Source: Pycnococcus provasolii
Lineage: Eukaryota; Chlorophyta; Pseudoscourfieldiophyceae; Pseudoscourfieldiales; Pycnococcaceae
Direction of reading: 5' to 3'
DNA length: 64,000 nt
Assembly (NCBI GenBank): GCA_938743325.2
Contig: OW568862.1
Coordinates: forward strand, 907,501-971,500
Shown here: positions 7,157 to 48,994 of the stretch, one piece after another
Position numbering within the stretch: the first letter of the stretch is position 1
Layout: every line of letters starts with the position of its first letter
Notes under the pieces: generated by a model
Told to the model about the DNA's origin: nothing
The model's input: only the letters and a program-made list of their open reading frames with translations
Databases searched by the model: none
Program-made: the position numbers and the translations under genes

Positions 7157-7168
7157 CCCTAACCCTAA
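7157..7168. promoter_or_regulatory. telo-box-like CCCTAA tract
   Basis: Two perfect CCCTAA units inside a looser run (7143-7171), 140 nt upstream of the GatA start codon. Confidence 0.5.
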
Positions 7169-9072: not shown

Positions 9073-9172
9073 AAGTATTTGTGTAAATGTTTTCCAAATT
9101 ACTAAAAATTTTCAATACATGTCACGCGTTAACATTTGTTTTTGCTTTTCATCCTTATTTCATGTTGTGCTA

Positions 9173-10286
9173 TCAGACGAGATTCTGATGTGGATCGCGA
9201 ACCGCCACATGTGGTATATACATGAAATCAGGCCCGCCCATGCTCACCTGCGTGTCGTCACGCTTTTTCTTCGGATACCCGTAGCCATGCTTCTGCAGCT
9301 CCATCATGCCCTTCGACCGTGCGGTGTTTACCAGGGTCAGCATCTCCTCGCTCGACGACTTGCTCGTCGTGACGAATCTCTTGTCCCCCAGCAGCTGTCC
9401 TGGCATGGCATCTTCGACGTTTGACGCGTTGCGGTTGTACCGCCCACGCGTGTTGGCATTGTGGCTGCGATCCTGCACGAGCTTGTCCATCGTCGTTCCA
9501 GCCCAGGAGAAAGGGAAGTCGCCTCCGCGCGAAACGGACAGTCGCGTGGCGCCAGCAGGAAAGGCTGTAGGTGGCGGCTTCGCTTTGGCTTTCCCTTTGC
9601 CCTTTTTGCCTTTCGGCGAAGCAAGGTACGGCTCCTTTGCGTGTTGTGAGAGCAGTGGATAGCGGTAGAGAGCGGGCTCCCCTGTGACTGGGTCGGGAAC
9701 AAGGCGGGTCGCACTTTCCTCGAACGCGTGCGTGCCGTCAAGGCGTGGCCCTAGACTTCCGAGCGCCGTCACCATGGTGGTTTTTGCTGTATCATTTTTG
9801 TTGTGTGTTAGGTAAGTTAGTGGTTGCTCTTGTATACGCCACGGCTGAGGCAGAGTTTATAGACTTACGAAATGCCTCGTGGTTTCCAATGTCTCTCGAA
9901 GACCGACTAGGCGGGTGTTCTCCGTACCCGAACGTTTCTCCCACGCACGACGGGTTCAGAGCGCCGTTTCCCCAGTTGCTTGCAAAGTTGCGTGTGTGAA
10001 AGTCTCGACGTCGAGACGTTCCGGGCACCCACGAGCTCGAGTTTTCGTCCCAGACGCGGTCGAGTTCGGCAAACTTCTGCTTCTCTGGGTCGTTGGCCAG
10101 CCGTTCGAGCGGCACGCCCAGCGGCAGCGTCGAGGGCACGGGAAAGCCCTTGTTCGTCGCGTTCCAGTTTTGCGTCGAGGGTGTTGGCGGCGCTGCGTAG
10201 AACTTTTCGTGCGTCGTTTCGTAGTTGACCTTGCGGTCGAACACGCGCCGGTCGTGAGGCAGGTCGTCAACGAACCCGCGCGGCAT
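9173..10286 (-). CDS. unrecognised two-exon protein, 343 aa
   Basis: Exon 1 10286-9869 and exon 2 9786-9173 join across an 82-nt intron (GTAAGTCT...ATACAG) and keep frame, reading ...NHEAFPKTTMVTALGSLGPR.... I do not recognise the family. The protein is hydrophilic with no signal or membrane segment. It has many short aromatic/basic motifs (YETTHEKFYAAPPTP, FHTRNFASNWGNGALNP, GDFPFSWAGTTMDKLVQDRS) and a Lys/Gly-rich run in the middle (PKGKKGKGKAKAK). Such scattered motifs recall microtubule-associated ciliary proteins, which would fit the IFT gene nearby, but this is only an impression. GatA ends 100 nt away on the other strand. Confidence 0.7.
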
Positions 10287-11021
10287 GGCTAGGACGAGAG
10301 CTGTACGTACGTACGTATGTATGTATGTAGAGGCCGGTGATGGTGGTTTTGATTTGATGGGAAAGGAAAAGCCCACCTGGTGGGGGTGGAGGGTGAGAAA
10401 ACGAAATTTAAGGGCGGGCCTTTTTTTCCCATGTATTCCTGACTGGGAGATCGATGACCAGTGGTCTTGATGTGAGCACTCCACAGTCCAGTGTCCACTC
10501 CCTCCCTTCATCAAGAACTCTGGGAAAGAACCCGCTTGAATGAACCCGCTTGATGACCTTGCGTGCAGCCTTGGCAAAAACAACGTCCGGCAAGTTGCCA
10601 GTTGCCTTACATACCCGGGTAGTTGCGATGAGCGAGTGGGCGTGTCGCCTGTGCACACCTACTGTAAACCTTGAAAGACCTGTGGCCAGGTCCTGTGGAG
10701 GTGTCCTGTGGCCTGTGGGAAAGAAACGGAGCAGTTAATCAGTTAAAATTTACTGATTCTCCCATCACACTTGCCCATCACTCACTATCGGGTATCGTAG
10801 ACTATCGTAAGAACTAAGGACTACTGTACTGATCACGGATCACCGTGGGTCCACCGAGATGTACCTGGAGGCTGGAACAAACCTCCTCTAAGGTTAGGGT
10901 TAGGGTTAGGGTTAGGGCGTAGGGTCGGCTCATTTTCGCCGTTTCGAACGCATTCTCACCCTTTTGGCTTTTTCGAACGCATTCTAGTCTCATTCTTCGT
11001 GCCTCGCAGTCTCATATCATT
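10287..11021. other. divergent intergenic region
   Basis: 735 nt between divergent genes. It holds a (GTAC/GTAT)n tetranucleotide run at about 10306-10331 next to the upstream gene's start, and a four-unit TTAGGG tract listed separately. No gene supported. Confidence 0.5.
10894..10917. promoter_or_regulatory. telo-box-like (TTAGGG)4 tract
   Basis: Four perfect TTAGGG units, 105 nt upstream of the ATG at 11022 and in the opposite orientation to the tracts at 130, 7157 and 34532. Confidence 0.55.
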
Positions 11022-11432
11022 ATGGACTCCTCAGGGTCGATGCACGCGCAAACTCACCTGCAGCCCGAACCTGCTCCTTCTACTCCGCTGGAGTCGGATC
11101 ACCTGTCGCTTCCCGCATCACACGCACAGATTGGTCAGCAAGTACCGCTAACAGCGGGGACATTACAGAGTAACCCGGCGCTCGCGGCGGGGCGCTCACT
11201 CGGAGAGTGCGGCGGGGACGTTCTAGGCGTCTCAGGCGCGGCGGGGACAGGGCCAGCGAAGCCGACCTGTTCGTCCATGTGGAGCCTGGAGGTGAACGCA
11301 GGCTGCGACGTCGCACCCGCGATGACGAATAGAACCGCGCTGACGTCGCTCATGGGGCGCGCGACCGTCGACGACGGGGACGAGGTGACGTCGTCACCGC
11401 CGGTGGGTTTGCACACGGTGCGTGAGGAGTAA
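11022..11432 (+). CDS. small hypothetical protein
   Basis: 136 residues from an ATG. Ser/Pro/Ala-rich and probably disordered, with no recognised domain, signal peptide or membrane segment. Support is limited: an ATG-started frame with GC-rich codon use like its neighbours, placed 105 nt after a four-unit TTAGGG tract of the kind found before other starts here, and flanked by AT-richer DNA on both sides. It could be a non-coding transcript. Confidence 0.4.
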   Translation: MDSSGSMHAQTHLQPEPAPSTPLESDHLSLPASHAQIGQQVPLTAGTLQSNPALAAGRSLGECGGDVLGVSGAAGTGPAKPTCSSMWSLEVNAGCDVAPAMTNRTALTSLMGRATVDDGDEVTSSPPVGLHTVREE

Positions 11433-12670
11433 CACCAAATGAAAACTTGTACTTTTATACAAAAACACACACAGTACATATACCGGTACTGTGATGTATG
11501 TGCTAGAACAAAGACATCTTCCCGGATGACAATCTCCCACCATCAACAGACAGGGTACTAGACAGGGTCCCTCATCTGGAACGACTGAGACTGGGCCGGG
11601 AGAGACTCACCCTAACCCTAACCCTAACCCTAACCCTAACCCTAACTTGAAACCCTAAAAAGGTACATCTCATTCCTTCTTCGAGCTCAAAACTCTTCGG
11701 ACCTCTTCGGACCTCTTCTTTTGGAGGAGCCTGGAGCCCTGGAGCCTGGTGCCTGGAGGAGGATACGCGAAGAGACGTAAGCTTACCTTTTCCGTCCTAA
11801 CTTACCACCAACCACCAGGTGGCTGACTGACAGGACAGCACAGTCTCGTTCTGTACAAAAAAATGAAAAAATTATGTATCCTATGCCGCGGCCATTTCTC
11901 CCTACCAACCTAGACTCTCTTGATAGTACTAGAAATTGCTCGTTTGTTTTTGCACTGGCAACTGGTTTCCACCAGAGTGTTTCAACCGGCTGTTTCTTGC
12001 AAGTCGCTCGCAGTTGGGATCCAAGGCTCGTCCGTACCCTAGTCCCAACCATGGACGGCCAAAGAAGGACTGGCAGTCAGACTGGGCAACTACCCTAACC
12101 TTAACCTTAACTGGCTGGAACTCTGCAGAGACCGGCTATTGACTTGTATGATCAATGATGCGGCCTCCGGAGCCCCTTTGGCCTTTGCTTTCATGCTTTG
12201 CTTTGGCTGATGAGGTCTTTGGCTGGTTCCTAAAACTGTACAGTACAGTACCCTAGTCTACGATAGTCTAAGAATGGTCCCACGTTCCACTTTCCACAGG
12301 CCACATGGTTGGTTTTTTTGCAACTCGGTGAACTTGGGAATAAAAACTCGGAATAGGGTAGAGACGTTCTTCGGACTTGCAATAATTTAATGGGGCGTCA
12401 TCTCAAAGAAAGTCGCACATCATCGAAGGAACGAATCGACATTCTTTTCAGCAGTCTCGCCATCTGAATTCATTCTTAACTTGAAGTAACTTAAGCTTGT
12501 TACAATACCTTGCCGTTGAAAGGGTTAGGATTCGGAGAGGCCCGCCCTTGAGTCTTGAAGTCTTGGAGCTTAAGGCTGGCCGCTTGCGCTTTGCAGCTGC
12601 AAAGCCAAGTCTTGCTTTTTTCAGCTGGGCAGCCAGCCTTGCTCTGGTGTTGGCCTTATTGGCTTCCACC
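11433..12670. other. intergenic, no supported gene
   Basis: 1.24 kb. It contains a six-unit CCCTAA tract (11610-11645), a degenerate second run near 12092-12115 and GGAGCCTGGAGCCCTGGAGCC-like short direct repeats at about 11725-11760. No convincing coding frame. The in-frame part just before the kinase start (12497-12670) has no ATG and is taken as 5' leader. Confidence 0.5.
11610..11645. repeat. interstitial telomere-like (CCCTAA)6
   Basis: Six perfect CCCTAA units, the longest such tract here. It lies 178 nt after the small hypothetical gene and about 1 kb before the NEK-IFT57 start, so a promoter role is less clear than for the other tracts. Confidence 0.7.
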
Positions 12671-15256
12671 ATGGAGGAAGCACGAACGCACCCCTCAAAC
12701 GATAACAACGACAATGACGACAACAACAGGAAGCGCGTTGGCGACGCGGCTGCCGCTGCGCCTTCGACACATACAACAATAGCCTTTGCGCCTGGTGGTG
12801 TGGAGCAGCGCACGACGACCACCAGCCCCACCAGCCCGCTCGCATTGGCGAACTCGCCACCACCACCGCCACTTCCACCGAGCCAGCAGCTGCTGCAGCA
12901 GCAGCCGCCGCTGAACGACGAAGCACCGAACGACGACGGACCAGCTACCGACGAGGAAAGAAGACGCGTCGAACAAGCTGAGCGTGAGGGCGAACGCCGC
13001 ATGGCGCAGTACGACGTCGGCCAGGCGGTGGGGCGCGGCGGATACGCAGTTGTGTACAAGGGAACGAGGAAGAGCGACAGCCTTCCCGTGGCAGTCAAGA
13101 AGGTGGAAATCTTCAACTTGACCGAACGCAAGCGAGCACGGTGCCTCGGCGAGGTGGAGCTGCTGCGAAGTCTCACTCACCCACACATCATCAGGCTAGA
13201 GGAGAGTTTCGTGTTTGACAACACACTCGTCATCGTCACCGAGTGGGCGAACAACGGCGATCTCAGACGGCTCATACGCAAAGCGCAGTCGCGCGGAAGG
13301 CCGCTCGACGAGCCGCTCGTGTGGCGGTACTTCTCGCAGGTGGCGGAGGCGCTCGCATTTATGCATCGCAATCGCACTATGCACCGTGACCTGAAGCCGG
13401 CGAACGTGCTCGTGAGCAAGGGCGTGCTCAAGCTCGCGGACCTGGGCTTGGGGCGGCACTTCGGGCCGGAAACGCAGGAGGCTTTCAGCAAGGTGGGCAC
13501 GCCGTACTACGTAAGCCCGGAGGTGGTGCGCGGCACCGGATACGATTGGAAGAGTGACATCTGGTCGCTCGGCGCACTGCTGTACGAGCTGGCGACGCTG
13601 CACAGTCCATTCGAGCTTCCGGAGGACCAGAAGGAGGCGGCTGCCAAGGCCAACGAGGAGGCGGCACCGGGAGCCAAGGGCGCGGGCCTGTACGCCGTGT
13701 TCCGGCGCATATGCGCGGGGAGCTACGACCCGCTGCCGGCTGACGAGCATTCGCCCGCGCTGCGCCGCCTCGTTGGACTCATGCTCAAGGTAGAAGCTGC
13801 GGCGAGACCTGATGCGGAGCAGGTGCTATCCTTCGCGCAGGCGGCTGTCGAGTCCGCGGCAGTAGGAAACACCGCGCGCGATGCAGCCCTCATCTCCGAG
13901 CATGCTGTCACAAACGTGACGCTGCTTGCCGAGACGGGTGTCGCGCAGATGTCACGCGCTGTGGAAAACATGATCGCGAGCGGGCGCCTGCACCCGCTTA
14001 CTTTCGCCTACGCGCCGCCGGGGCGGCACGCCGATTCGGACGTCGAGCGGCGCACCTTGGCAGACTTTTTCGCCGTGTGCGCCTTCTTGCTACGTGCGCT
14101 GGGCAAGTCCGACGCCGAGCTCGAAGCCGTCGCGAGCGATCTGGTGGTGCCCGGTGCGGACGTCCCAAGGGAAAGACGCCTTGAGGCGTGCCAGCGCGTG
14201 CGAGACGAGGCGGAGTCGGTGGTGCGAGACAGCGGCGGTCTGAAGAAGGCTGGAAAGGGTCAGTCAGGCGCGGATGCAGATGTGAGCTTGGAGAGACAGA
14301 ATGTCCCGCCGTCGTCTGCCGTCACGGCGCTGTTGAAAGGCTACGGCCCAGCCCCCGCTGGTGTTGTCGCAGCGCTTTCCAGCGTGGTGGTGGAAAAACT
14401 CCACCCTAAGCCGCCGCAGCCCACGACGCCAGCTGTGGAGCCAGCCATCCCGGTGGTTGATGTGTGGGACGACGAAGCAAACGTCTTCTCGCTCGTGTCG
14501 TCCACGGCACCGCCCATTCCGGACGAGGAGGCTATCGACGGGGATGAGGAAGACGGCGAGGCCGACTACGTGGCACATGCCGAGGAAACGGATGAGGATC
14601 CCATGCTCAATCCGATTCTTCCGTCCGTTGACCCAGATGCGTGGCGTTCGGAGACGACAAGTCTGGCGAATCGAGGAGCATTTACCGTGACTGTTCAGGT
14701 GGACGGCGCCGGCTTTGCTCCCGCACAGGCACGTGCTGTCGAGCTACGCCATGATATTTGGGAGGGGCTTCAGGATACAGCGCCGCGACTGGCGGCTGCC
14801 ACGAGCGTAATGAGTGACGAAATCGACGTCAGCCTGTCAGCTATCACGGCGCGCGAATCGCGGGTGAATGGCGTTGGCGCGACGCCAGATGCGGCAGTGC
14901 GCTCGCTGAAGAGTCGTGCGCAGGAGGCAAATGCACAGCTGAATCAAGCCCGTGAGGCGCTCGCACACGCCGAATCACGCGTGCAGAGCAAGGCGATCGA
15001 GCTTGTGCGAGTTGAGGAGGCGCACCGCCAGGTGGCGGAGCGTGTGGAAGAGGCAGGTGCTTGCGTGAAAGATCCGGAACTCGGACGCCAGAGGTACATT
15101 CATCCGATGAAATTGACGATGGAAGACATGAGGCGCGAAATGAGGGTGATGGATCTGACCATCGAACGGTATCGCGGCGAGTTGCTGAGAAGCGGGTCGT
15201 CGTTGGCGCATCTCACCAAGGACCTTGCCGAAGACGAAGAGGAAGACGATGATTAA
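12671..15256 (+). CDS. NEK-family kinase fused to IFT57
   Basis: One uninterrupted 861-residue frame. Residues 1-105 are a disordered Asn/Asp/Pro-rich head. Residues 110-390 are a protein kinase with glycine loop GRGGYAVVYKG, K143, HRDLKPAN (D240), and DLG (D257) instead of DFG; DLGLGRHF and VGTPYYVSPE are hallmarks of NEK6/7-type NIMA kinases. From about 410 the sequence follows intraflagellar transport protein 57: LHPLTFAYAPPG then a helix ending FLLRALGK (the calponin-like head), VPPSSAVTALLKGYG, an acidic stretch, DPDAWRSETTSLANRGAFTV, and IDVSLSAITARESRVN leading into a coiled coil that ends VMDLTIERYRGELLR. IFT57 is a peripheral IFT-B subunit. The linker is only ~20 residues, with no stop or plausible intron. 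ATG 12671 is the first in frame. Confidence 0.88.
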   Translation: MEEARTHPSNDNNDNDDNNRKRVGDAAAAAPSTHTTIAFAPGGVEQRTTTTSPTSPLALANSPPPPPLPPSQQLLQQQPPLNDEAPNDDGPATDEERRRVEQAEREGERRMAQYDVGQAVGRGGYAVVYKGTRKSDSLPVAVKKVEIFNLTERKRARCLGEVELLRSLTHPHIIRLEESFVFDNTLVIVTEWANNGDLRRLIRKAQSRGRPLDEPLVWRYFSQVAEALAFMHRNRTMHRDLKPANVLVSKGVLKLADLGLGRHFGPETQEAFSKVGTPYYVSPEVVRGTGYDWKSDIWSLGALLYELATLHSPFELPEDQKEAAAKANEEAAPGAKGAGLYAVFRRICAGSYDPLPADEHSPALRRLVGLMLKVEAAARPDAEQVLSFAQAAVESAAVGNTARDAALISEHAVTNVTLLAETGVAQMSRAVENMIASGRLHPLTFAYAPPGRHADSDVERRTLADFFAVCAFLLRALGKSDAELEAVASDLVVPGADVPRERRLEACQRVRDEAESVVRDSGGLKKAGKGQSGADADVSLERQNVPPSSAVTALLKGYGPAPAGVVAALSSVVVEKLHPKPPQPTTPAVEPAIPVVDVWDDEANVFSLVSSTAPPIPDEEAIDGDEEDGEADYVAHAEETDEDPMLNPILPSVDPDAWRSETTSLANRGAFTVTVQVDGAGFAPAQARAVELRHDIWEGLQDTAPRLAAATSVMSDEIDVSLSAITARESRVNGVGATPDAAVRSLKSRAQEANAQLNQAREALAHAESRVQSKAIELVRVEEAHRQVAERVEEAGACVKDPELGRQRYIHPMKLTMEDMRREMRVMDLTIERYRGELLRSGSSLAHLTKDLAEDEEEDDD

Positions 15257-15452
15257 TAATCTCCTCGAATGTGTTCTAAAATACGTTGTATAGCATTGTG
15301 TAATAGAAAGACGGATGCAAAAGAAAGAAAGAAAGAAAGAAAGAAGCAGCAGCTGGCTACACATTTCACAAAAAAAACCCTTGTGCAAAAAACGAGCATA
15401 TTTCCCTCTTTTTTCTTACCTTTATACCCCTTTTTGTTCCACATCAAATGTC

Positions 15453-17642
15453 TTACGCCGCAACGGCCTCAGCCTCCTCCTCTTCCGAATCCGGCTCCTT
15501 CCATCGGCCGTACTCCTTAATGAGGTCAATCAGCGCGTCGCACGCCTCCTCGTTCGGAATGGCGCGCTTCACCACCTCCTTTCCTACGTACAGGTCCACC
15601 TTGCCCGGTGCGCCTCCGACGTATCCAAAGTCGGCATCCGCCATCTCGCCTGGACCGTTGACGATGCATCCCATAATCGCGACCGAAACGCCCGGAAGAT
15701 GTCCGGTGCGCGACGCGATCTGTGCCGTGACCTCCTGCAGGTCAAAGAGGGTGCGTCCGCACGACGGGCAGCTGATGAACTCCGTCTTCGTGTTGCGCAT
15801 GCGGCATCCCTGCAGCAGGCCGAACGAAATGCGACGTGCGTCGTCCATTGGCACAGCGTCTGTCTTCACGCAAACGCCCTCGCCGAGTCCGTCGACGAGG
15901 CATCCCCCAACCTCGCCGCCTGTGCGGATCACGAACTCGTCAAGGGTCACCTCGCCGTCCTCGTACAATGCCACGTGCACCACGGGCACGTCGAGTCCAC
16001 TCGCCTTGACGAGCTCAAAGGCACGGCGCATCGTGTGCATGCGGCTGCCCTTCGAAGTGTCAGCCTGCGCAAGAAGCACCGCCGGTCGCGACTCGGGCGA
16101 CTTGCACATCGCCGCGAGCGTCTCGAACGCCGCGGCGTCCTCCGTGCCGTTGAAGCGCACGGCGAAGCGCTCGCATCCCTCCGGCAGCGACGGCGCCGAG
16201 CCATCGAGCGCGGAAAGGTTGTACACCGCCACCGCACCGTCCATCGGGTCGGCGGTCAGCGCCGCCTCGTCGCAGATCACGTGCACGTTGCTCTCCATCA
16301 GCCGGCGGAATGTGCGCCTGAGCTCGGCATTCGACGACGGCGGCACGCCACCGTCCGTGAAATAAATGCTGTCGACGGTGGCAATGTCCTTGAACGGCAT
16401 GCCCACAACCGTCTTGCATCCGAGGTTGGTGTACAGCTCGCTCTCGCTCATTGACGCCGCGGCGTCTACGGTGAGCGATCCAAACACGGACCCATCGCGG
16501 TGGCAGATGCCGCGGTAATCGAGCGAGTCGCCCTCGCGCTGCTCTGGCAGCTCCACCTCCCGGCGATCGTAGCTGCGGAAGTCGCGCATCTTCTCCTCGA
16601 ACGGCACTGCCGTCTCGTACCCCGCCACAGCCTTCTCGCCGAGCGCCGTCAGCACCGCGCACGGCGCGAGCTCGAGCTCCGGTGCCTCTGTGAGGCTGAC
16701 GCGCACGGTGTCGCCGAGTCCGTCGAGCAGCAGCGCGCCGATGCCGATGGAGCTCTTCATGCGCCCATCCTCACCTTCGCCAGCCTCCGTGACGCCAAGG
16801 TGCAGCGGGTAGTCCCAGCCCTCCTTGTACATTTCGCTGGCGAGCAGGCGGTACGCCTGCACCATGACGAGAGGGTTGGATGCCTTCATGGAGAAGACGA
16901 AGTTGTGGTAGTCGTGCTTGCGGCAGATGCGCGCAAACTCAAAGGCGCTCTCGACCATACCCTTGGGCGTGTCGCCGAAGTACGAGAGCGTCCGTGCGCT
17001 GAGGCTTCCGTGGTTGGTTCCGATGCGAATCGCGCGTCCCATTTCCTTGCACTTGAGCACGAGCGGCGTGAACGTCTCCTCGATGTCGTCGAGCTCGCGC
17101 TGGTAGTCCGCGGGGTCCTCGTAGGTGATTTCCTCGAACTTCTTGCGTCCGTCGGCGTAGTTTCCCGGGTTGACTCGGATCTTCTCGAAGGCGTCCGCCA
17201 CCTTGAGCGCCGCCTTGGGGTTGAAGTGGATGTCCGCGATGAGCGGCGTGTCGTATCCATCCTTGAAGAGTCCGTTTCGAATTTCCATCGCCGCTTCCGC
17301 CTCCCTGAGTCCCTGCACGGTGATGCGCACCATCTCCGCGCCAGCGTCCGCGCATCGCTTCGCCTCGTCGATTGTGGCCTGCACGTCTCTGGTGTCTGTG
17401 GTGAGCATGGTTTGTTTGACGACGGGGTGTTCGGATCCCACCTTGACGTTCCCGATAGTGACGGTTCGCGTCTTTCTCCGAAGGGTTCGCGTCGTGTCGT
17501 CGCAGTACGCGGGGATCAGGACGTCAGACGGCGCGGCGACGACGGTGTTTAACAGGGGTGAGGATCCCTTCGAGGATGCCTGGCATCGCACCACACCACC
17601 TCTGCGGGAACCCGCAGAGAGCTTGGACATCGTCGGCGCCAT
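15453..17642 (-). CDS. ispG: 4-hydroxy-3-methylbut-2-enyl diphosphate synthase (IspG/GcpE), plastid type
   Basis: Penultimate enzyme of the plastid MEP isoprenoid pathway; a 4Fe-4S enzyme converting MEcPP to HMBPP. 729 residues, the long plant/algal form: TIM barrel (about 65-350, with MLTTDTRDVQATIDEAKRCA and FNPKAALKVADAFEKIRVNP), an inserted middle domain (about 360-610), then the cluster domain with CPSCGRTLFDLQEVTAQI (about 625) and GCIVNGPGEMADADFGYVGG (about 658), providing the three Cys and the Glu. The first ~40 residues (MAPTMSKLSAGSRRGG...) are basic and Ser-rich, a likely plastid transit peptide. The ATG at 17642 is the natural start. Convergent with NEK-IFT57, 196 nt apart. Confidence 0.96.
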   Translation of the reverse strand: MAPTMSKLSAGSRRGGVVRCQASSKGSSPLLNTVVAAPSDVLIPAYCDDTTRTLRRKTRTVTIGNVKVGSEHPVVKQTMLTTDTRDVQATIDEAKRCADAGAEMVRITVQGLREAEAAMEIRNGLFKDGYDTPLIADIHFNPKAALKVADAFEKIRVNPGNYADGRKKFEEITYEDPADYQRELDDIEETFTPLVLKCKEMGRAIRIGTNHGSLSARTLSYFGDTPKGMVESAFEFARICRKHDYHNFVFSMKASNPLVMVQAYRLLASEMYKEGWDYPLHLGVTEAGEGEDGRMKSSIGIGALLLDGLGDTVRVSLTEAPELELAPCAVLTALGEKAVAGYETAVPFEEKMRDFRSYDRREVELPEQREGDSLDYRGICHRDGSVFGSLTVDAAASMSESELYTNLGCKTVVGMPFKDIATVDSIYFTDGGVPPSSNAELRRTFRRLMESNVHVICDEAALTADPMDGAVAVYNLSALDGSAPSLPEGCERFAVRFNGTEDAAAFETLAAMCKSPESRPAVLLAQADTSKGSRMHTMRRAFELVKASGLDVPVVHVALYEDGEVTLDEFVIRTGGEVGGCLVDGLGEGVCVKTDAVPMDDARRISFGLLQGCRMRNTKTEFISCPSCGRTLFDLQEVTAQIASRTGHLPGVSVAIMGCIVNGPGEMADADFGYVGGAPGKVDLYVGKEVVKRAIPNEEACDALIDLIKEYGRWKEPDSEEEEAEAVAA

Positions 17643-23691: not shown

Positions 23692-25536
23692 TCATCGCGA
23701 AAATGCGCTATTCGGGCGAGGCGCTGCGCCTACTCGGCCGCGAAATGCACTTGCTCGCCGTGGCCCACTGGGTGGTTGAGGAGCCCGCGGGCCAACACCA
23801 GTCAAGCCGTCGGAGGAGGAGGAGGAGACGGACCCACTCGTGGGAGGGCGGAACAGCCTTCGGGCACGCACCGCCGAGCGATCAGGGCGTGGCGCAGCCG
23901 CTGCCAACGACCCGCGCTTTGTTGAGGCAATTGCCGAAGCCGCAACGGCAGCACCCGGAGATGCCTTGGGCTTCTCCGCGGAAGCCGCCGATGCAGCCGC
24001 CGATGCAGCCGCACGGTGTCCAGGCGACTCGTGTGTCTCCGCCTTACCATCGGCTCGGCTCGGTGGGCGCTGCGTCGACGCCGAAACTGGTGTCCCTCGC
24101 GACGGAACCAGCTTGCCTCCCGTTCCTGAGACAAGGGGATGCCTTCCCTGGCCTTGGTTTTCGAATTGCTCGAGCAGATTCGTCGCCGTGCCAGAGGCCT
24201 CTGAAGAACTGCGTCTCGGCGGCGTCGCGACGACCGAAGCGAGGTATGCAGAAGCGCCACCGCGCGTGGCATCCTGTGCTGTGCCGCGTTGCCTGCTCTT
24301 GAGCACAACGGGTGACACGTTCAGGGCTGGACTCACCTGAGCTGCTGCTCCCAGCCTGCTCGGGTCGGTGGGACTCGTTGCACCGATGCCCACAATCTCC
24401 ATCACATCGCCGGGCACGCAAGTGGGACGTGCGGGCGGCGAAGGGTGTTCATATGACGCGAAGTGCACGTTCGCCGTATCCGTGCGCCCGTCCGCGCTGC
24501 TGGAGCGCTCTCGCCGAAGATTGCGCAGGCCACGCACGCCCACCGACGGAGCGTTGCGTTCGCCAACCCCCTGCTGTGCCTGCGAGTGCGCTGGGCTCGG
24601 TAATTCACTCGTTGGCACGGCTCCCACCGCGGCGGCGTCCGCAACCTCGGCGGCACCAGCCGCGGGTGCTCGCGGCGGCGAAGCGCGTGCAGCCTCCCTT
24701 GATTCGGCAGCTTCGCGCATACTGTCAACCGCCGCGGCGATTGCAGCGACATCCTTGGTAAGTTGACCCACCTCCTTGCGGCAGAACGACTCGAGCATCA
24801 TGTGCGCAACACGCACGTCCTCGACGTCGTCCATCGTGCCCTGCAGCATCTGCCTCGTCTTATCCGCCGGTGTGGGCACATTTTCCTTGGCCGCAGCCTC
24901 TTCGAACAACGCAGATGTGCGCGCCTCCAAGTCCTCGAGGCGTGCAGACACTGATTCGGCGCCCACTTCGAGTGTCTGCACGCGCTCCTCCGTGCCCGTG
25001 GCCGCTTCGAGCCTTTCGAGGCGCGCAAGCACGTCGTTGAGCGTTTTGCTGTGAGCGTCCGAATCTGACTGCAGCAGCAGCTGCTGCTGCTCGAGAGTCG
25101 CCACTTGTTCGCCTCGGCTGTGTACGGCGTCGAGGTTCAGCTTGGGCACGTCCGGCGGCGCGGTGTAGGGCGCCGCGCTCTTCTCGCTTGGTGTTGATGC
25201 TGAGGAGCCACTTCCCTCTCTCGCCGAGTCTTCGATGTCGTCGTCGTTCTTTCCGATTCGTATGCCCGCACCGCCCGCTGTGATAGGCTTGGTGGGTACC
25301 GCCATATTTTCCGCGCCCCACTTTTCTTTGATTGTTGTTTTGAGCGCATTCTGCTCGTCAACGAGTTTTCCGACGGTTCCCGTGAGTTGCGCGAGTTCGT
25401 TCGCGGACGCCGCTTTTTCGACGGCCGCCCATAGCGTGCTAACTCGCTTGGCGAGCGTGTCTTGCAGTTGTTTTTGCGCGTCAACACATAAAGCGTAGTT
25501 CTGCTCAAGCTCAGCAGCCACCTGGTGCGCGCGCAT
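23692..25536 (-). CDS. coiled-coil protein with long disordered tail, function unknown
   Basis: 614 residues from ATG 25536 (the open frame extends upstream only through a Phe/Leu-rich AT stretch that begins at a non-ATG codon). Residues 1-80 and about 165-280 are predicted coiled coil (ELEQNYALCVDAQKQLQDTL; VATLEQQQLLLQSDSDAHSK; DVLARLERLEAATG). The rest is Ala/Ser/Pro/Arg-rich and likely disordered, with SR-type runs near the end. No enzyme motif, signal or membrane segment. The sequence just before the coding part (GCGCACCAG then GTGGC) could be a splice acceptor, so a further upstream exon is possible. Family not recognised. Confidence 0.6.
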   Translation of the reverse strand: MRAHQVAAELEQNYALCVDAQKQLQDTLAKRVSTLWAAVEKAASANELAQLTGTVGKLVDEQNALKTTIKEKWGAENMAVPTKPITAGGAGIRIGKNDDDIEDSAREGSGSSASTPSEKSAAPYTAPPDVPKLNLDAVHSRGEQVATLEQQQLLLQSDSDAHSKTLNDVLARLERLEAATGTEERVQTLEVGAESVSARLEDLEARTSALFEEAAAKENVPTPADKTRQMLQGTMDDVEDVRVAHMMLESFCRKEVGQLTKDVAAIAAAVDSMREAAESREAARASPPRAPAAGAAEVADAAAVGAVPTSELPSPAHSQAQQGVGERNAPSVGVRGLRNLRRERSSSADGRTDTANVHFASYEHPSPPARPTCVPGDVMEIVGIGATSPTDPSRLGAAAQVSPALNVSPVVLKSRQRGTAQDATRGGASAYLASVVATPPRRSSSEASGTATNLLEQFENQGQGRHPLVSGTGGKLVPSRGTPVSASTQRPPSRADGKAETHESPGHRAAASAAASAASAEKPKASPGAAVAASAIASTKRGSLAAAAPRPDRSAVRARRLFRPPTSGSVSSSSSDGLTGVGPRAPQPPSGPRRASAFRGRVGAAPRPNSAFSR

Positions 25537-26993: not shown

Positions 26994-29900
26994 TTATGGG
27001 CTAGCGGATGCCTGCGCACGCGCTACAGCCGCGCGAATTTTCTCATTGCGGCGCTTCGCACAGACACGCAAAATAGGCGTCACACTAGCGCAACCTGCGG
27101 CGAACAACAACGCTCCCACGTTCGTGCAGACCAGTATTGCGGTAAGCACGACTCCACCCGCGACGGGTTCGTTGCGCGTAATCAGCGAGTGCACTGCGAG
27201 GGCAAGCGCCGCTACGCTGTTGATTGCGTTAGCGAACGTGTACACGCACTCACTCATGTGTTCCGAACTGCTCTCGAAAGGGTGGCCTCGTAGTGCCGTA
27301 GCCGTGCCAAGCAGACATACGCAGGCCGCGAACGTGCACGCAATCACAGGTGTCGTACCACCCTGCCCTTTGGTGGAACGAACGACGTTCGTCGCCATCA
27401 CAAGCAGCACGAGCTTCAGCGTCATCACGAAGCTTTTGTAGTACTTCCATTCTCTGCGGTAGTCCTGGTAGAGATATTGGTACGGCGTGACGTACTCACG
27501 TACAGCTTTTGCGTACAGCATGCGCAGCGCCGTTCGCCGCTCACCAAGCGCATGTAAGAGCTCAGTCATGGATGCATTGTGCTTGTGCTGCACCGCAGCT
27601 TCTTCGTCCATGATGCGCCGTCCGTCAAGTTGCGAAATGACGGAGTCGTCTGAGCCTGAGCTGTCTTCGATGCCGCCAGGCACCACGTCGATGGTCGTAA
27701 GTTCTGTCTCTATTGGCATAGGTCGAACTACGCTGTCGACGGCGCTACCTCGGGGAGTCGGTGCAAAAGCTGGCACCATGTCGTGCATTCCTGGCATGCG
27801 CGCGAGAAACGATTGCAAGTTGTTCAGCTCTGTCTCCATCTGTGCGTAATTGAAGGCGCGCTCCGCCTCGTCAGTGGCCTTGCGAACCAGCACGACGAAG
27901 AGCAGCGGCACCCCCAAAGTCGCCACCGGCACAAACACGACAGAGAATAACGTGGGCCAGAGAGCGACCATTCGCACGCCGCCAGTTGTGTCGTTCACAA
28001 TAGGTCCGTAGGGTGACTGAGGCGAAAAAGGCTGTAGTGCACAGCGGCTGAGTGGCATGTACAGCGCCGTGACGGCGAAGAGGACGATTCGCTTGCGAAG
28101 CTGAACGGGCGTGTAACCGAACCACCTTTCACAAAGCGACTTGAGACTGCTGCAGCACGAAACGTTTGATGTCGTCGCGCGCGTCCCCGTCACCGCCGGT
28201 GTCAATTGCAGGGGAGATCTTCTGTCATCGATCGCGGCATCACTTTCGGCGCCAGGTGAAAGTTCGTGCAGCCTTCCGGAGGAGGAGGGCGTAGAGTTTG
28301 ATGGTGGAGGACGTTGCTGCTCGTGGCTTGCACGAGGGTACCTGTACAGCACGAAAAGAAGCGGGAGTGTTCCCATCGCTGCAACGTACGCGATGATACG
28401 CCACGATGAAACACTGTCTTCTCTGCTGGCATCGCTACTGCCGTCGCGGAAGACGTCCAGCATTGGCAGCTCGTAAAAGAGGATACGCGACCAGGAAAAG
28501 CTGCTGTTATCGTCCTGGCGACCGTTGAGATGTGCCCACAGTGGCGGCCATGTCACGTCAAGGCCTATCACCAGCGCGTAGAATTGAATGAAGTTGATCA
28601 ACTGTTCAAACTTTGCGCTCAGCCTTCCCGACACAGCGTCAATACTAGCCTCTTCGTAGAGCAGGAATCCGCGCGCATTCTGCATGAGAGCCCAACCGGC
28701 ATCTTCAACATCAGCCTCCATCGCGATAAATTCCTCCTGCAGAGCCTCGCTCGCGACGAGATGAAGTGGCACCCTTTTTCGGTGCATCAGCTGCGGATGT
28801 TTTAATTCAGAAGATGGCGACGAGGGTTGTGATGAAGATGAGGATATGATGTCAAAGTCGTCGTCGTCGCCGCCGCCGCCGTCATTGACGGCGATTGAAG
28901 GCGGCGATGTAATTTCTTCCTCCTCCTGCTGCTGCTGTGATGGAGATGATGAGCCAACAGCGCCGCCGCTGAGTGCGGCTGCACCCCATGCAGCGCAAGC
29001 ACCGTCGACGTCCGTCATGGGACGCGTGAGAAGTGCCATCGCCTCAGTTCGCATCTCTGCCATTTGGCGTCTGGCATTCACGCGCTCATTTGCGCTCACA
29101 TGCATGCCGTCAAGCGCCTCTAGGCTGGGCAGCGCGTCGATCGTGCATAATCTGTACGAACGCAGCTGGCGTGGCCCTGGGTTTTCCGCCAGCCACAATC
29201 GGAGGATTGGCACGTGGCTCAGGCTGCGAACGAGCACGGCGTATTCCTCAGTGGAGATATCGCAGTCGTTGAAGTCGATCTCGGACATCTCGTTGGGCCC
29301 GACACCGGCAATGCGCCAAAGGAACCGTGCAGATCTCCATCCGCGATCACAAAGTGGATTCGGATTCACCTGTCCGTCCACCTCACGAAGTGCTGGAAGT
29401 TCACGAAAGCACATTCTGGAGACGACAGGCGTTCTCCTTCTCAACATTGCCGAGGATGGTGAGGACGACAATGGCGAAGACGTAGCCGCCACCGCCGCCG
29501 CTGTTGATGATGTTGATGAGGTGGTACACCAGCGTCCACAGCGCGCCGCGAAGAGGATGCGTAGCGCGTGGCATGTTCGAAGTGGCTCGATGAGAGCATG
29601 CGCATTAGCGATTTCGTTGTCGCGTACGTCGAGCGTGCGCAGATTCTCGAGAGCATCAATACCATCCAAATTGGTGAGCTTGTTGTTCGCCAGGACCTGT
29701 TTTGTTTATTATTTGTGTTAGGTTAGTGTGTATTATTTATCCGCCACCGATGGTTCGAGGTAGACTTACTGCACGCGTGATCTGTTTTATTTAGCGCGGT
29801 ATGTTGTTAGTGATTGTTGTTATATCTGTCATAAATGGTTAGGGGCAGACTTACGTATGTCAGCGTGAGTGGTGGGTGCACCGTAGCAATGGCGTCAGCG

Positions 29901-34531: not shown

Positions 34532-34555
34532 CCCTAACCCTAACCCTAACCCTAC
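34532..34555. promoter_or_regulatory. telo-box-like CCCTAA tract in divergent promoter
   Basis: Three perfect CCCTAA units plus CCCTAC, 37 nt from the start of the Cys-rich gene on the minus strand and 186 nt before the CPSF160 ATG. Confidence 0.55.
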
Positions 34556-34740: not shown

Positions 34741-37700
34741 ATGGTGTACGCCGCGCTCACAAAGCTGCACGCATCCACGGCGATAGACGCCAGCGCAGCC
34801 GCGTACTTCACAGCGCCGTGCCTCACTCTGACCGACGCCGCGTCAGCTTTCGGAGATGTCGCGCACGCACACCAATCACCACACTCGGCACAGCAGCAGC
34901 AGCAGCAGGAGCTTCTCGTCGTGCGTGGCACCTTATTAGAGTGCTACCGCATAAGACTTCCCAAGAGCTCGAGCGCACAGGGAACGAACGATGACGAAGA
35001 CCTCGAGGCACGCGCGCGCCTGCACCTCGTCGCGTCGTGGACGTTGCCTGCAAGCCCGGACTCCATCGCGACGCTGCCCGCACGACGAAGGGGGCAGAGG
35101 GACGCACTGATGCTTGCCTACTCGCCGTGCAAGCTCGCGGCTGTCGAGTACGATCCGTCAACGAACGGCATTCATACTGCAGCGCTCGCACAATTTGAGC
35201 CAGACAAGGGCCTGCCGGGTGGCCTGGGGGCGTCGCCGTCACACGGAGTTTATGCGCGGCTTGCTACCGATCGAACGGGCGCATGCGCCGCAGCGCTCGT
35301 GCACGGAGGGCGCGCCATCGCGCTAATGAAAGCGCTCAGCGACGCCGGCGGCGACCAGCACGACTTGGCAACGGCGCCGTCGGCATCCATCGACCGTGCG
35401 TATCTCGTGCTGCCGTCCGAGCTTGGGATCCCGACGGGAGCCATGGTACGCCTGTGCGATGTGACGATCCTGAACGGCTTCTCGGAACCCACGCTCGCCA
35501 TCCTCTACGAGGTGGGCCCGAGCGCCGCGGGCATGTACCGCGACGGACTCAAGGACACGTGCCGTATTCTCGCCGTGTCGGCTGATCTTGAGGCGAAGCG
35601 TCACGTCGTCATCTGGCGCGCGGACGACGTAGCATTACCCAGCGATGCCGTCAGCCTGCAGGCGGTGCCTCAGCCGCTCGGTGGCGTCATCGTCATCTGC
35701 TCCACATCAATCCACTACTTCTCTGGCCCGGGCACGTCCGCCGTGCGACGAGCTACGCTTGCGGTGTCTGCCTACGGACTCTCAACGCCAAATGACAACG
35801 CCACGACCGAGACGGGCGTGCCAGTGCCACCCGCACCCTTCGGGGTCGTGCCTGAAGCACTCCCCAGCACACTTGGCGGAATGAATAACGCTGTTACCGC
35901 CACCGCGATGCAGACGGCGGCAGCAGGATCCAAGACGGCAGGTAAACCAGCATCTACCACCGCCCCGGACATGGCATCTATCATCGCGCAGGCGCAGAAG
36001 CAGATAACGGCCATGCTGCCCGGCCTGGGGCCCAAAGCGCCGGCGTCATCAGCCACCACGGCGCAGGCTTCTTCGGCGCAGCAAAGCGGGGGCGGTGCGA
36101 CAGCATCGTCCCAAGGTGCATCCGCAAAGTGCGCCTTTCCCGATTCGACTACAATGACTCTCGACGGTTCGCGCTTCGCGTGGCTTAGCACGCACAACGC
36201 AATGATCGCGCTTCGCACAGGCGAGCTTCTGCTGCTTCACCTCACAAGAGATGACATGGGCGGCGTTTCGATGGCTCTCACCAAGCTCGGTGCTGGGCCG
36301 CCATCGAGTTGCTGCTCGCGCCTTAGCGATCGGCTCGTATTCCTCGGCAGCCGCGCCACCGACTCGCTCGTCGTGCGTTATCGGCCTCAGAAGACGATGT
36401 CGCGCACGAAGGAAGATGCGCTGGCGGCACGCGAGGAGGAGGGTGCCGACGAGGACGACGACGACGCAGGCGTCGGTGACGACGTCGACGCGACCGCAAA
36501 GGCGAAGGCGGCGTCGATTGACGACGACGAAGAGATGGCTGAGCTCTTCGGGGCTGGCGGTGACACCGCATCGCCGGACGATGCACATGGCAAGGCTGCG
36601 TCAGCCATGCGGGATGAGCAGTGCGAGTCGTACGAACTGAAGGTTGCCGACAGCATTTTCGTCACCGGGGCTATACGTAGCATGACAACTGGCGAGGTTG
36701 GCGACTCGAACGAGGTGGGTGCACAGGCTCCCGTGGGAAGATCGCTTCGCGCTACGGATTTGGTAGCGGCGTGCGGCTTCGGGAAGGGTGGCTCTCTCGT
36801 CGCGTTTCGAAAGGGTATTCTACCCGACGTCCTTGCAGAGGTTGGACTTGAGGGCATCACGGCGATGTGGACGGTGCTAGGTGAGGCGAGCGAAGAGCTA
36901 CCGCAGACACCTCGCACGTCCAGTGGGCTGAGCCATACCAGCTCAGGCTCCCAGGTGACCGGAGATCTTCACGCGTACCTCGTGCTGCGATTCGACGGCG
37001 TCGGGCAGAAGACGGCGCGCGTTCTAGCGTTCGTCGGCACGGAAAATCAGGAGGTGACGTCGAAGTGCGACTTCCTCAGTGATGCGGTCACTACGGTGCA
37101 CGCCGCGCCGATCGGCGAGCGGCGTTCCTGCATGCTGCAGGTGCACACCCGAGGCATGCGATTGCTTGCAAATGCGCGTGCCGCGAAATTAATAGACCTT
37201 TCGGGCGAGGAGGTATACCGTGCGCAGCATGGCAAGCCGCCGGCGGAGCACTTTCCGGACATCATGTTCGCCGACGTGTGCGAGGAGCACATCCTGCTCC
37301 GCTTCCGCGGCGGGAAGCTCGGTTACGTAGCCTACTCGGAACCGGGCGCGATCGCGCCGCGAGGAGCGTGCGCCGCGACGCCCCGCTCTGAAGCGCCGGA
37401 GGCGTCATCCAACGCGCAGCTGCCTGCGCTGCGCTTCACGGCATGCACACTGTACCACGATGCACACGGCTTCCTCGCTGATGCGCTCTCGCTACGACCC
37501 ACGTGGCGAACGCCCGAGGCACCTTTCCCAGCCACGGGTGGCGTCTTCGTCGTGGCATGCTCGCACCCGTCCGGCGCCATTCACATCTACGCGCTCCCAA
37601 CCTTTGCACTCGTGTGGAAGTCATATGATCTCTACGAGGACAGGCCGCTGCTGCTGAGCGATGCGGGTGACATGGAGCTCGAACTCGAGGAGAACGACGA

Positions 37701-40248
37701 CGCGCTGGCGGAAGCGGCGGCGGAGGCGACGGTGAGTGCAGGCGGATCCGGCGACGGCGGCGACGAGCCATCCGCGAAGCGTGCCAAGGTGGACTCGGAA
37801 TCGAGCCAAGCGCTCGTGTCCGCGGCACCGGCCAAACGAGTCGGAGGAGCTGCCGCAATGTCTGAGGCTGACGAGGCTTACGTCGTGGAGCTGCGCCTCG
37901 ACGACTTTGGACGCCAGCGCCACGCGCAGGGGCCAATGCTGACCGTGCGACGGGCAGATGGGACGGTGGAAGTTTTTACCGCATTCGTCGCACCATTGTC
38001 TGCAACACAGCCTGAAGCAGCAGCACCAGCGGCGGCGGTGGAGCCTTCGGGTAGCTCAAGCAGCGGTGGAGCCGCTCCGCTTCGGTTCCTGAAGCACCCG
38101 CGCGTGGGCGCTGACGCGGGTATCGCGCCTGCCTGTTCCGTTGGCGACGCCGATGCGATTGATGCCTTCCTTGTGGCTGAGAGGAGACTTGGAGGCGCGG
38201 CGACGGAAGCGGCGCTGCCCCCACCTCCCCCCCCACGGCTCGTGCGCTACGATGGTGTGGGGCGCGACATGCTGAAACAGCATCCACTTGGCCTGTGCGG
38301 CGTCTTCGTCTGCTCCAAGCACCGACCGTACTGGGTGCTTTGCATGCGCGGCGGTCGCATTCGCGTGCACGCGCAGGTTGAGGACGGCGCGGTGTGTGCG
38401 TTCGCGTGCCTGCACAATGCCAACTGCCAGCATGGTTTTCTCTACTCGACTTCCGCGTCGGCATCGGCGTTGAAGGCTGCGGGTGGCGCGGGAACGGTGA
38501 AGAGCCTCCTCAAGATTTGTCAGCTCACCCCGCACGTGCGCTACGACGGTCCGTGGCCGTGCAGTCGCAAGCTGCTTCGGTCAGACGTGTCGCGCGTCGC
38601 CTATCTGCCCGGCAATCAGGCGTATGTCGCGGTGGTTTCTCGCATGCTACCGTGCAGCACGAACGTGACGATCCCAACCTCGCCTCTCGCGCCGCTGCCG
38701 AATGCCTGGCCGCCCCCACTCGCAGAGCCGCCGGGAACTGGTGACACGCAGGCGTACACAACCGCGAGCGTCATGCGTGCAGCTTGCCTGAGGCGTGGCA
38801 CGGTGGAGGTGGATGAGCTCATGTTTTTCGACGCGCCACGTGCAGGTCGCTGGGTGGAGGACAGCTGGTCCTTTGTTTACCGCTGCGATCCCGAGGAGCG
38901 CGTGCAGGCGCTCTGTGCGTGTGGCCTTCGCGGCTCGGGAGCATCGTCCGCCGCGACTGCTCCGGGGGGTGCTTCGGCGGCTCACCGCTTCCTCGCCGTG
39001 GGCACGAGCTTGGTGTACGGCGAAGACGTTCCGAGCCGTGGCCGCATCGTGCTGCTCGAGCTGCACGACCTGCGCCCGCACGGCGGCGGTGAGCGCGGTC
39101 ATCTCGGCGGTTCGCGAAAGGTGCCCAGCGTCGTTTGCACGATGAGTCAGAGTCTGGAGAGATTCAGCCCGATCGCGACGCTCGCGGAGGTGGACGGGCA
39201 CCTCGTGGCTGGACGTGGCTCGGTGCTTGAGATGCATGAGTGGAAGCCGAAGGCGGCTCCACCTCCGCAGCAGGCGGGTGGTGGAGGCATTGAGGCTGCT
39301 ATCGTGCCCACCGCGCTCGGCACTCTGCAGCAGGTGGCATTCCACAATGTGCTGTACGGCACGTGCGTCGCGGTGGTGAAGAGCTTCATTCTTCTGGGAG
39401 ATGTGCAACGTGGTCCGACATTCCTGCAGTGGCGCCCTGCGGGGCGCAGCCTCGTACCGCTGGGGAATGACGTTGAGCGCCTCGAGTGCGTGCTGACGGA
39501 CTTTCTCGTCGATGGCGTCAGCGAACGTGGGAAGAAGATGCAGCTCGGCTGTGTGATTTCGGATATCCGCGGTAGCATTCACGTGTACACGTACTTCCCA
39601 ACACGCTCTGCGCGCCCCGGCGCGTCACTGGCTGGCGCTGGTCCGGAGTCGGCGACGGCAACATCGAGCAGCAGAACGCAGCTCATGGACTACAGGCAGC
39701 TCATGGCAAACACGGAGGGCAAGCTGACGGAGCGCATGTGCATACAGTGCACGTCCAAGGCTCTGTGCAGCGTTCGCCAGGTGTGCTTCCCCGGCCACAT
39801 AAGCCAAGCTGTCGCTGGCCTCCCGCACGAGCGGATTCGAAGTGGCGACTACAACGCGCCCGGGCAAGCTGGCGGTGGCGCGGGACCGCAGCGCCAAGCT
39901 CCGCTGCTTGGCCACGGCGACGGCAGCATGTCGTGCCTGATGTCCATCAGCGAGACAAGCTACAAGCGTCTCGCGGCTCTGCAGAAGGTGATGACCCTGA
40001 AAGACCTGTCCATCTCGAGCGGTGCGGGCGTAAACACCGCGGACGTGCTCTCGCCGGTTGACATGGGCGTGTTCGCCGGCCGTCCGTGCCGCCCCATGAC
40101 AGATCCGATCGTCGACATCGACGTGGTGCTTCGTTTTTTGTCGAATACGCGCCGTCGTCAGAATCTTCTCGCGCGTCAGGCGGGCACGAGCCGTCGCATG
40201 GTGCTTCGCAGCATGCTCGAGGTTGTGGACAGCGTGAGAGCGCCGTGA
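34741..40248 (+). CDS. CPSF1: CPSF160, cleavage and polyadenylation specificity factor subunit 1
   Basis: 1835 residues, intronless; scaffold of the mRNA 3'-end processing complex. N-terminal match: LLVVRGTLLECYRIRLP, then LCDVTILNGFSEPTLAILYE and VVIWRADDVALPSDAVSLQA with PQPLGGVIVICSTSIHYFSG, the diagnostic CPSF160 block. C-terminal CPSF_A region: EMHEWKPK, FHNVLYGTCVAVVKSFILLG, MSISETSYKRLAALQKVM and the final DPIVDIDVVLRFLSNTRRRQ. It is ~400 residues longer than the human protein because of Ala/Ser/Gly-rich and acidic inserts (about 380-470, 565-630, 975-1030). A Gln run lies at about residue 50. ATG 34741 is directly preceded by ACC. Its partner proteins act in the nucleus. Confidence 0.92.
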   Translation: MVYAALTKLHASTAIDASAAAYFTAPCLTLTDAASAFGDVAHAHQSPHSAQQQQQQELLVVRGTLLECYRIRLPKSSSAQGTNDDEDLEARARLHLVASWTLPASPDSIATLPARRRGQRDALMLAYSPCKLAAVEYDPSTNGIHTAALAQFEPDKGLPGGLGASPSHGVYARLATDRTGACAAALVHGGRAIALMKALSDAGGDQHDLATAPSASIDRAYLVLPSELGIPTGAMVRLCDVTILNGFSEPTLAILYEVGPSAAGMYRDGLKDTCRILAVSADLEAKRHVVIWRADDVALPSDAVSLQAVPQPLGGVIVICSTSIHYFSGPGTSAVRRATLAVSAYGLSTPNDNATTETGVPVPPAPFGVVPEALPSTLGGMNNAVTATAMQTAAAGSKTAGKPASTTAPDMASIIAQAQKQITAMLPGLGPKAPASSATTAQASSAQQSGGGATASSQGASAKCAFPDSTTMTLDGSRFAWLSTHNAMIALRTGELLLLHLTRDDMGGVSMALTKLGAGPPSSCCSRLSDRLVFLGSRATDSLVVRYRPQKTMSRTKEDALAAREEEGADEDDDDAGVGDDVDATAKAKAASIDDDEEMAELFGAGGDTASPDDAHGKAASAMRDEQCESYELKVADSIFVTGAIRSMTTGEVGDSNEVGAQAPVGRSLRATDLVAACGFGKGGSLVAFRKGILPDVLAEVGLEGITAMWTVLGEASEELPQTPRTSSGLSHTSSGSQVTGDLHAYLVLRFDGVGQKTARVLAFVGTENQEVTSKCDFLSDAVTTVHAAPIGERRSCMLQVHTRGMRLLANARAAKLIDLSGEEVYRAQHGKPPAEHFPDIMFADVCEEHILLRFRGGKLGYVAYSEPGAIAPRGACAATPRSEAPEASSNAQLPALRFTACTLYHDAHGFLADALSLRPTWRTPEAPFPATGGVFVVACSHPSGAIHIYALPTFALVWKSYDLYEDRPLLLSDAGDMELELEENDDALAEAAAEATVSAGGSGDGGDEPSAKRAKVDSESSQALVSAAPAKRVGGAAAMSEADEAYVVELRLDDFGRQRHAQGPMLTVRRADGTVEVFTAFVAPLSATQPEAAAPAAAVEPSGSSSSGGAAPLRFLKHPRVGADAGIAPACSVGDADAIDAFLVAERRLGGAATEAALPPPPPPRLVRYDGVGRDMLKQHPLGLCGVFVCSKHRPYWVLCMRGGRIRVHAQVEDGAVCAFACLHNANCQHGFLYSTSASASALKAAGGAGTVKSLLKICQLTPHVRYDGPWPCSRKLLRSDVSRVAYLPGNQAYVAVVSRMLPCSTNVTIPTSPLAPLPNAWPPPLAEPPGTGDTQAYTTASVMRAACLRRGTVEVDELMFFDAPRAGRWVEDSWSFVYRCDPEERVQALCACGLRGSGASSAATAPGGASAAHRFLAVGTSLVYGEDVPSRGRIVLLELHDLRPHGGGERGHLGGSRKVPSVVCTMSQSLERFSPIATLAEVDGHLVAGRGSVLEMHEWKPKAAPPPQQAGGGGIEAAIVPTALGTLQQVAFHNVLYGTCVAVVKSFILLGDVQRGPTFLQWRPAGRSLVPLGNDVERLECVLTDFLVDGVSERGKKMQLGCVISDIRGSIHVYTYFPTRSARPGASLAGAGPESATATSSSRTQLMDYRQLMANTEGKLTERMCIQCTSKALCSVRQVCFPGHISQAVAGLPHERIRSGDYNAPGQAGGGAGPQRQAPLLGHGDGSMSCLMSISETSYKRLAALQKVMTLKDLSISSGAGVNTADVLSPVDMGVFAGRPCRPMTDPIVDIDVVLRFLSNTRRRQNLLARQAGTSRRMVLRSMLEVVDSVRAP

Positions 40249-47900: not shown

Positions 47901-48957
47901 ATTCAGCCGGACGTTGCTTCGGATCACCAGGCCGCCTCCGACGGCCGTGATGCCGTCGAGACCTGTAAGAGTCTTCAGCCGGGGATTGCTCCGGATTACC
48001 ACGCTGCCTCCTCCGACGGTCGTGATGTTGTCGAGACCGGTGAGCGTCTTCAGCCGGACGTTGCTCTGGATCACCAGGCCGCCTCCGACGGTCGTGATGT
48101 TGTCGAGACCGGTGAGAGTTATCAGCTGAGCATTATTATAGATCGACATGCCGCCTCCGACGGTCGTGATGTTGTCGAGACCGGTGAGAGTCGTCAGCTG
48201 GGCGTTGTCCCGGATTACCAGGTTGCCTTTGACGGTCGTGATGTTGTCGAGACCGGTGAGATTCGTCAGCTGGTCGTTGCCCCGGATTACCAGGTTGCCT
48301 CCTCCGACGGTCGTGACGCCGTCGAGACCGGTGAGAGTCGTCAGATTGGCGTTGTAATCAATCCTCAGGTCGCCTCCGACGGTCGTGATGCCGTCGAGAC
48401 CTGTGAGCGTCGCCAGATTGGCGTTGTAGTTAATCCTCAGGTCGCCTCCGACGGTTGTGATGCCGTCGAGACCTGTGAGATTCGTCAGATTGGCGTTGCT
48501 CCGGATCCACAGTTTGCCTCCGACGGTCGTGATGCTCTTGAGACCTGTGAGAGTCGTCAGATTGGCGTTGCTCCAGATCCTCAGGTTGCCTCCAATCACT
48601 GTGAGGTTCGCCAAGGGAGAAAGGTCCACCATCGACGTAGTATTCCTTATCGTAAGATTGCCTTCCACACAACGTATGCCGCTCGCCTGCACAGGTACGT
48701 CCTCATCCACAAAATGCCAGTCGTCGTCATAGAAGATCGAGGTCTCTCGCCCAAATCTGAGTTCACCAACCACCCATGTCACGCCCATCAGGTCCTCCGC
48801 TTTCGTTTCGTTCGTCACGATCTTCTTCACCGTCCCACACGTCTTCTCATCAAACACCAATCCTTCGTCGTTCGTCGGATCGGCGTCACGATCTGCGGGT
48901 GTTGTTCTAGTGGTGGTGGTGGTGGTGGTGGTGGTGGTCGTCGTCGTCGTAGGCTGT

Positions 48958-48994
<37 letters not shown>

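Follow-up and report, generated by a model that had tools for sequence, protein, structure and literature searches.

A NEK7-like kinase and an IFT57-like region in one predicted gene of the green alga Pycnococcus provasolii

The locus and its kinase domain

In the green alga Pycnococcus provasolii, a single open reading frame (ORF) joins a protein kinase of the NIMA-related (NEK) family to a region resembling IFT57, a subunit of the intraflagellar transport (IFT) complex IFT-B. The window that was analysed is a stretch of 64,000 nucleotides (assembly GCA_938743325.2, contig OW568862.1, positions 907,501 to 971,500), and all coordinates below refer to it. The frame occupies positions 12671-15256 of the + strand and runs from ATG to TAA over 861 codons, giving a protein of 861 amino acids; its TAA stop is immediately doubled by a second TAA. 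The ATG lies in the context GGCTTCCACCATGGAG / CCACCATGG, of which CCACCATGG looks like a strong Kozak site. A preliminary description of this DNA had claimed that a NEK kinase runs without a stop into an IFT57-like part, and this was borne out, the one frame containing both Pfam matches. That a NEK7-like kinase shares its reading frame with IFT57 has the support of curated profiles and of a coding signal that continues over the join.

The encoded protein, all of it on the + strand, begins with an N-terminal tail of low complexity (residues 1-104, 12671..12982) made of D/N, T, P and Q runs, whose in-frame coding bias was 0.272 bits/codon. It is followed by the kinase domain (residues 105-390, 12983..13840), by a coding segment without family match which we call the join (residues 388-541, 13832..14293), and by the IFT57-like region (residues 542-831, 14294..15163), delimited by Pfam PF10498 and by shuffle tests, in which a head end, an acidic linker and a coiled-coil part succeed one another. 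The sequence closes on an acidic C-terminus, EDEEEDDD (residues 854-861, 15230..15253).

The kinase domain is complete: the Pfam protein kinase family PF00069 matched residues 114-387 (E 1.1e-57), and NEK7 (PDB entry 5de2) was aligned over residues 105-390 (E 1.5e-67), with identity at 123 of 260 aligned positions in the printed alignment. The G-loop starts at residue 121, and the catalytic and related residues are kept, namely K143, E161 of helix alpha-C, D240 of the HRD motif, D257 of the DLG motif and the activation-loop S273, which precedes VGTPYY. K143, D240 and D257 had been named beforehand as the marks of a complete kinase, and they were found at exactly these positions. When the kinase was ranked against the PDB (best 60 of 2681 matching sequences), the nine top matches were all named NEK7 (226-233 bits) and the tenth was 6npy_B (218 bits). 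After NEK7, scores did not exceed 142 bits for NEK2 and 123 bits for CDK1/CDK2, with NEK1 (119 bits) among the latter, so that NEK7 was ahead of NEK2 by about 90 bits. The label "NEK6/7 type" has this ranking as its basis (NEK7 about 232, NEK2 142, NEK1 119 bits) and is to be read as closest among solved structures.

Coding signal across the join

Analysis of the join was based on 19 of the 23 listed ORFs of at least 300 amino acids. Those left aside were two frames antisense to an IspG gene (15315-16454 and 15448-16365), one antisense to a Rad4-like ORF (61769-62797) and an open-ended duplicate of the same Rad4-like ORF. Codon usage was trained on the 18 ORFs other than the fusion frame, and the 18 gaps separating the 19 ORFs, fusion frame included, were scored in the same way. 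The in-frame bias amounted to 0.470 bits/codon over residues 388-427 and to 0.347 over residues 388-541, compared with at most 0.128 in the best frame of each of the gaps, which taken whole are longer than the join. In a length-matched control, the gaps were cut into 139 tiles of 40 codons, and 4 of the 417 tile-frames of the + strand were open with a score at least equal to that of the join; some of these tiles may lie in real unlisted genes. Furthermore, the GC content around the join was 0.65-0.66, versus 0.35-0.56 in the gaps.

Another reading is that two genes were merged by an assembly error or a lost stop, or that the fused frame is translated into two proteins, the second starting internally from M427 or M434. 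Each half indeed resembles a protein which stands alone elsewhere (NEK7 and IFT57), and in-frame ATG codons occur at residues 427 and 434. The openness of the frame by itself is weak evidence for a single gene: in gap sequence, an open run of 40 codons had a probability of 0.26, so such runs are not unusual in the non-coding sequence of this window, and a run of 154 codons had a probability of 0.006. Against two genes, the join shows no non-coding gap either by codon bias or by GC content, and the smallest gap between neighbouring ORFs of the same strand was 265 bases among the 19 ORFs. Had a stop merely been lost, UTR-like (untranslated region) sequence should remain, and none was seen. All these points bear on the merging of genes and not on internal initiation.

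The position of the transcript end was also considered. The pentamer TGTAA was found within 120 nucleotides past the stop in 10 of the 19 ORFs and within 120 nucleotides before the start in none of them, the largest such difference among the 1024 pentamers. UGUAA has been described as a poly(A) signal restricted to late-branching Chlorophyta (PMC1868727). In the fusion gene, this chlorophyte-type signal is present at 15299..15303 (+), 42 nucleotides past the stop. The transcript therefore probably ends after the IFT57 part, since TGTAA follows the stop and is absent from the frame itself. Likewise, because the join is coding by codon usage and contains neither TGTAA nor a drop in GC content, two neighbouring genes in place of one are unlikely. 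We give only a small probability to the merged-gene and internal-start readings together, and consider it highly probable that the fusion frame is expressed as a single predicted protein.

The gene faces an IspG gene across a short interval: on the opposite strand, 15453-17642 (-) is a single-exon GcpE/IspG gene of 729 amino acids, convergent with the fusion gene and 196 bases apart from it. On the other side, the fusion gene is preceded by 3.6 kb (9073-12670, GC 0.53) in which no ORF of at least 300 amino acids is listed. Long uninterrupted frames are found elsewhere in the window, and a CPSF-A/RSE1-like ORF of 1835 amino acids at 34741-40248 (+) illustrates the intron poverty of the stretch. 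A single-exon ORF of 1615 amino acids at 44934-49781 (-) carries the Receptor L domain PF01030 in four matched stretches (E 4.7e-47), and two long single-exon ORFs, 23692-25536 (-) of 614 amino acids and 26994-29447 (-) of 817 amino acids, have no Pfam match at E 0.001. Neither an Rfam family nor a tRNA was detected in the window. Short arrays of CCCTAA (TTAGGG-type) were observed at 11610-11645, 10894-10917, 34532-34549, 7157-7168 and 130-141; two-unit matches numbered 12 in the window, and none occurred in 100 shuffles. These repeats differ from the telomere repeats described for Chloropicon, which range from TTTAGG to TTTTTAGG (PMC12301720).

The IFT57-like tail

The profile search of the tail proposed in the preliminary description gave a match: Pfam PF10498 (IFT57) was found over residues 542-831 of the full protein with 42.5 bits (E 5.4e-11), above its curated cut-off of 40. 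The score was 44.9 bits when the kinase was removed and 44.7 bits from residue 542 onward, and the match follows most of the profile in order (82-353 of 360). In addition, a two-sequence profile was built from human and Chlamydomonas IFT57, the Chlamydomonas chain being retrieved from the PDB with the human query. We take the IFT57 chains of entries 8ruy and 8bd7 to be of Chlamydomonas origin, which fits PMC10191852, the PDB table giving the molecule name alone.

Against this profile the tail (residues 391-861) scored 26.0 bits, a value reached by none of 1000 shuffles (785 scored, best 7.6), while the reversed tail scored -2.0 and the 18 other ORFs used in the window at most 1.1 bits. The middle and the coil alone (residues 611-861) scored 22.0 bits, and none of 2000 shuffles equalled them (best 10.2). 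Since shuffles, the reversed tail and the other ORFs all score far below it, the relationship of the tail with IFT57 is considered real, and its IFT57 descent appears almost certain. A generic coiled coil matching IFT57 by composition alone would agree with the small margin of the Pfam score in the full protein, 2.5 bits over the cut-off, and with a weak intermediate-filament match in the tail (E 0.012). However, none of the 1000 shuffles came up to the score of the tail, nor did the reversed sequence, and the IFT57 E-value of about 1e-11 stands against 0.012 or worse for the next non-kinase Pfam families of the tail. A generic coil is thus very improbable.

The reading that we prefer, and to which we assign an even share of probability, is that a single gene encodes a single protein, in which a rapidly diverging IFT57 comes after a NEK7-like kinase and would, by its coiled-coil tail, place that kinase in IFT-B2. 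Several observations weigh against it. The tail shares 80 of 365 aligned residues with Chlamydomonas IFT57 and 76 of 366 with the human protein, whereas the latter two share 144 of 369; so strong a divergence suggests a relaxed or changed function. In the tail, other residues replace the KDWR..H stretch that the human and Chlamydomonas proteins have in common; this is a weak criterion, drawn from two reference sequences and from no established family definition. For the join, residues 388-541 matched no Pfam family up to E 10, and when they were compared with the human and Chlamydomonas IFT57 heads (summed), 328 of 1000 shuffles did as well by local and 509 of 1000 by global alignment. AlphaFold models computed without alignment were poor, with pLDDT (predicted local distance difference test) values of 42.6 for residues 395-600 and 48.1 for residues 103-430. 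Finally, single-protein searches, which reach close relatives only, revealed no fusion-bearing relative in viral or prokaryotic collections; as these collections cover no eukaryotes, this says little.

The preliminary description had a protein following IFT57 from its calponin-like head to the coiled-coil end. The coil part was confirmed by PF10498, though strongly diverged, and the head was undetectable by sequence; an ordinary IFT57 of full length, as implied there, is not supported. A head-only IFT57 profile gave 2.0 bits, with 16 of 2000 shuffles equal or better, and aligned with residues 546-580 or so only. With the segment lengthened to residue 600, the comparison with the Chlamydomonas head beat all but 2 of 1000 shuffles, and for the human head 386 of 1000 were as good (local alignment). 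These results are compatible with, though no proof of, the end of an IFT57 head around residues 546-580. A calponin-like head directly after the kinase was not found, since residues 388-541 are without match and the weak likeness begins only near 546. The "only ~20 residues" said to lie between kinase and IFT57 become a provable gap of about 154. Residues 388-541 hold either a head diverged past recognition or other content. An NCBIfam scan gave 14 matches, all below cut-offs and mostly to kinase models or to enzymes with kinase-like domains; one weak match fell within the join (AmcG, residues 391-453, E 0.0054, below cut-off). Of the columns on which human and Chlamydomonas IFT57 agree, the fusion keeps 7 of 43 up to residue 541, 10 of 24 in 542-640 and 26 of 77 in 641-861. 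A PDB search with the tail alone returned no IFT57 chain, only a weak synaphin match (E 0.81).

The strong divergence and the undetectable head would also be expected if the genome had an ordinary IFT57 as well, and if this NEK had taken over a duplicated IFT57 coil as a tail for oligomerisation or targeting. Such a protein would not necessarily be a train subunit and might be located in the cytoplasm or at basal bodies. Neks with rapidly evolving C-terminal interaction domains have been described (PMC2031824). Nevertheless, the IFT57 match still covers most of the profile in order, and we hold this possibility to be a serious one, of about one chance where the other readings together have two.

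Proposed role and known systems

Under the preferred reading, the NEK kinase is probably tethered to IFT-B through the coiled coil of IFT57 type. For the trains of Chlamydomonas, it has been described that the coiled coil of IFT57/38 connects IFT-B2 with the IFT-B1 subunit IFT88, and that a long flexible linker carries at its tip the IFT57 head (IFT57-CH), which contacts IFT172-WD1 (PMC10191852). The coiled-coil tail of the fusion would pair with the IFT57 partner IFT38, and this pairing would bring the kinase into the trains on their IFT-B2 side, near the usual contact between the IFT57 head and IFT172. Being ahead of the head, the kinase would be positioned at the flexible IFT-B2 edge. IFT, motor or axonemal proteins could be its substrates there, their phosphorylation keeping pace with the number of trains, and the dose of kinase would thereby track transport. 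In the simplest view, the protein would be a NEK having IFT57 itself as its interaction domain.

Given the known place of IFT57 in IFT-B, a kinase on IFT trains is plausible. Whether the fusion rides these trains as the IFT57 of the cell is a matter on which the balance is level, and the divergence of the tail argues for some change of role. A stronger version, in which the fusion would be the only IFT57 of the alga, the kinase having replaced the calponin-like head, with one NEK per IFT-B unit and delivery to the flagellum counted by trains, is doubtful in our estimation.

If the gene is expressed as a fusion, it would tether a regulatory kinase to the ciliary transport machinery. Kinases affect intraflagellar transport, and how directly they do so is often unclear, according to a review dealing with RCK, CCRK, CaMK and CDKL (PMC9454703). 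A kinase within an IFT-B subunit would, if true, be a natural tether experiment pointing to where a NEK acts, and the proposal that a NEK works on the train would become directly testable in one alga, or with the same fusion in Chlamydomonas.

NEK and IFT57 are each known, and their combination appears new as far as the viral and prokaryotic collections and the open-access literature were searched. Among the open-access papers listed, none describes a NEK-IFT57 fusion by its title or by the start of its abstract; public protein databases may contain relatives that are already annotated. Searches of viral contigs produced 7 pattern matches with the full protein, 7 with the tail and 6 with IspG, the neighbour of the fusion, none of them confirmed. 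Among prokaryote genome contigs, 81 pattern matches led to one confirmed locus, a kinase from a Clostridiales metagenome-assembled genome, whose similarity is confined to the kinase part (residues 112-333, 36% identity).

Compared with NEK7, the whole kinase domain is alignable, including the GxG loop, K143, E161, HRD, DLG and the activation-loop Ser beside VGTPYY. Unlike NEK7, the fusion kinase is preceded by the 104-residue low-complexity tail and contains in its C-lobe an insert of net 19 residues, around residues 317-337 (13619..13681, + strand, by NEK7 alignment). It also has a Leu at the first Tyr of the NEK7 KYYASF stretch, which we take to be Y97, the autoinhibitory tyrosine. Moreover, 471 residues follow the kinase in the fusion, whereas NEK7 aligns to near its chain ends. 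With IFT57 (PF10498 and the Chlamydomonas chain of 8ruy and 8bd7), the tail shares the in-order passage from head end to acidic linker to coiled coil; it differs from IFT57 by having no recognisable head before about residue 542, by the loss of KDWR..H and by the kinase in front. By description, further close counterparts are the Chlamydomonas flagellar Neks Cnk2p, Fa2p and CNK11, which like the fusion kinase are NIMA-related and for which flagellar roles in a green alga have been described (PMC2031824, PMC4562644).
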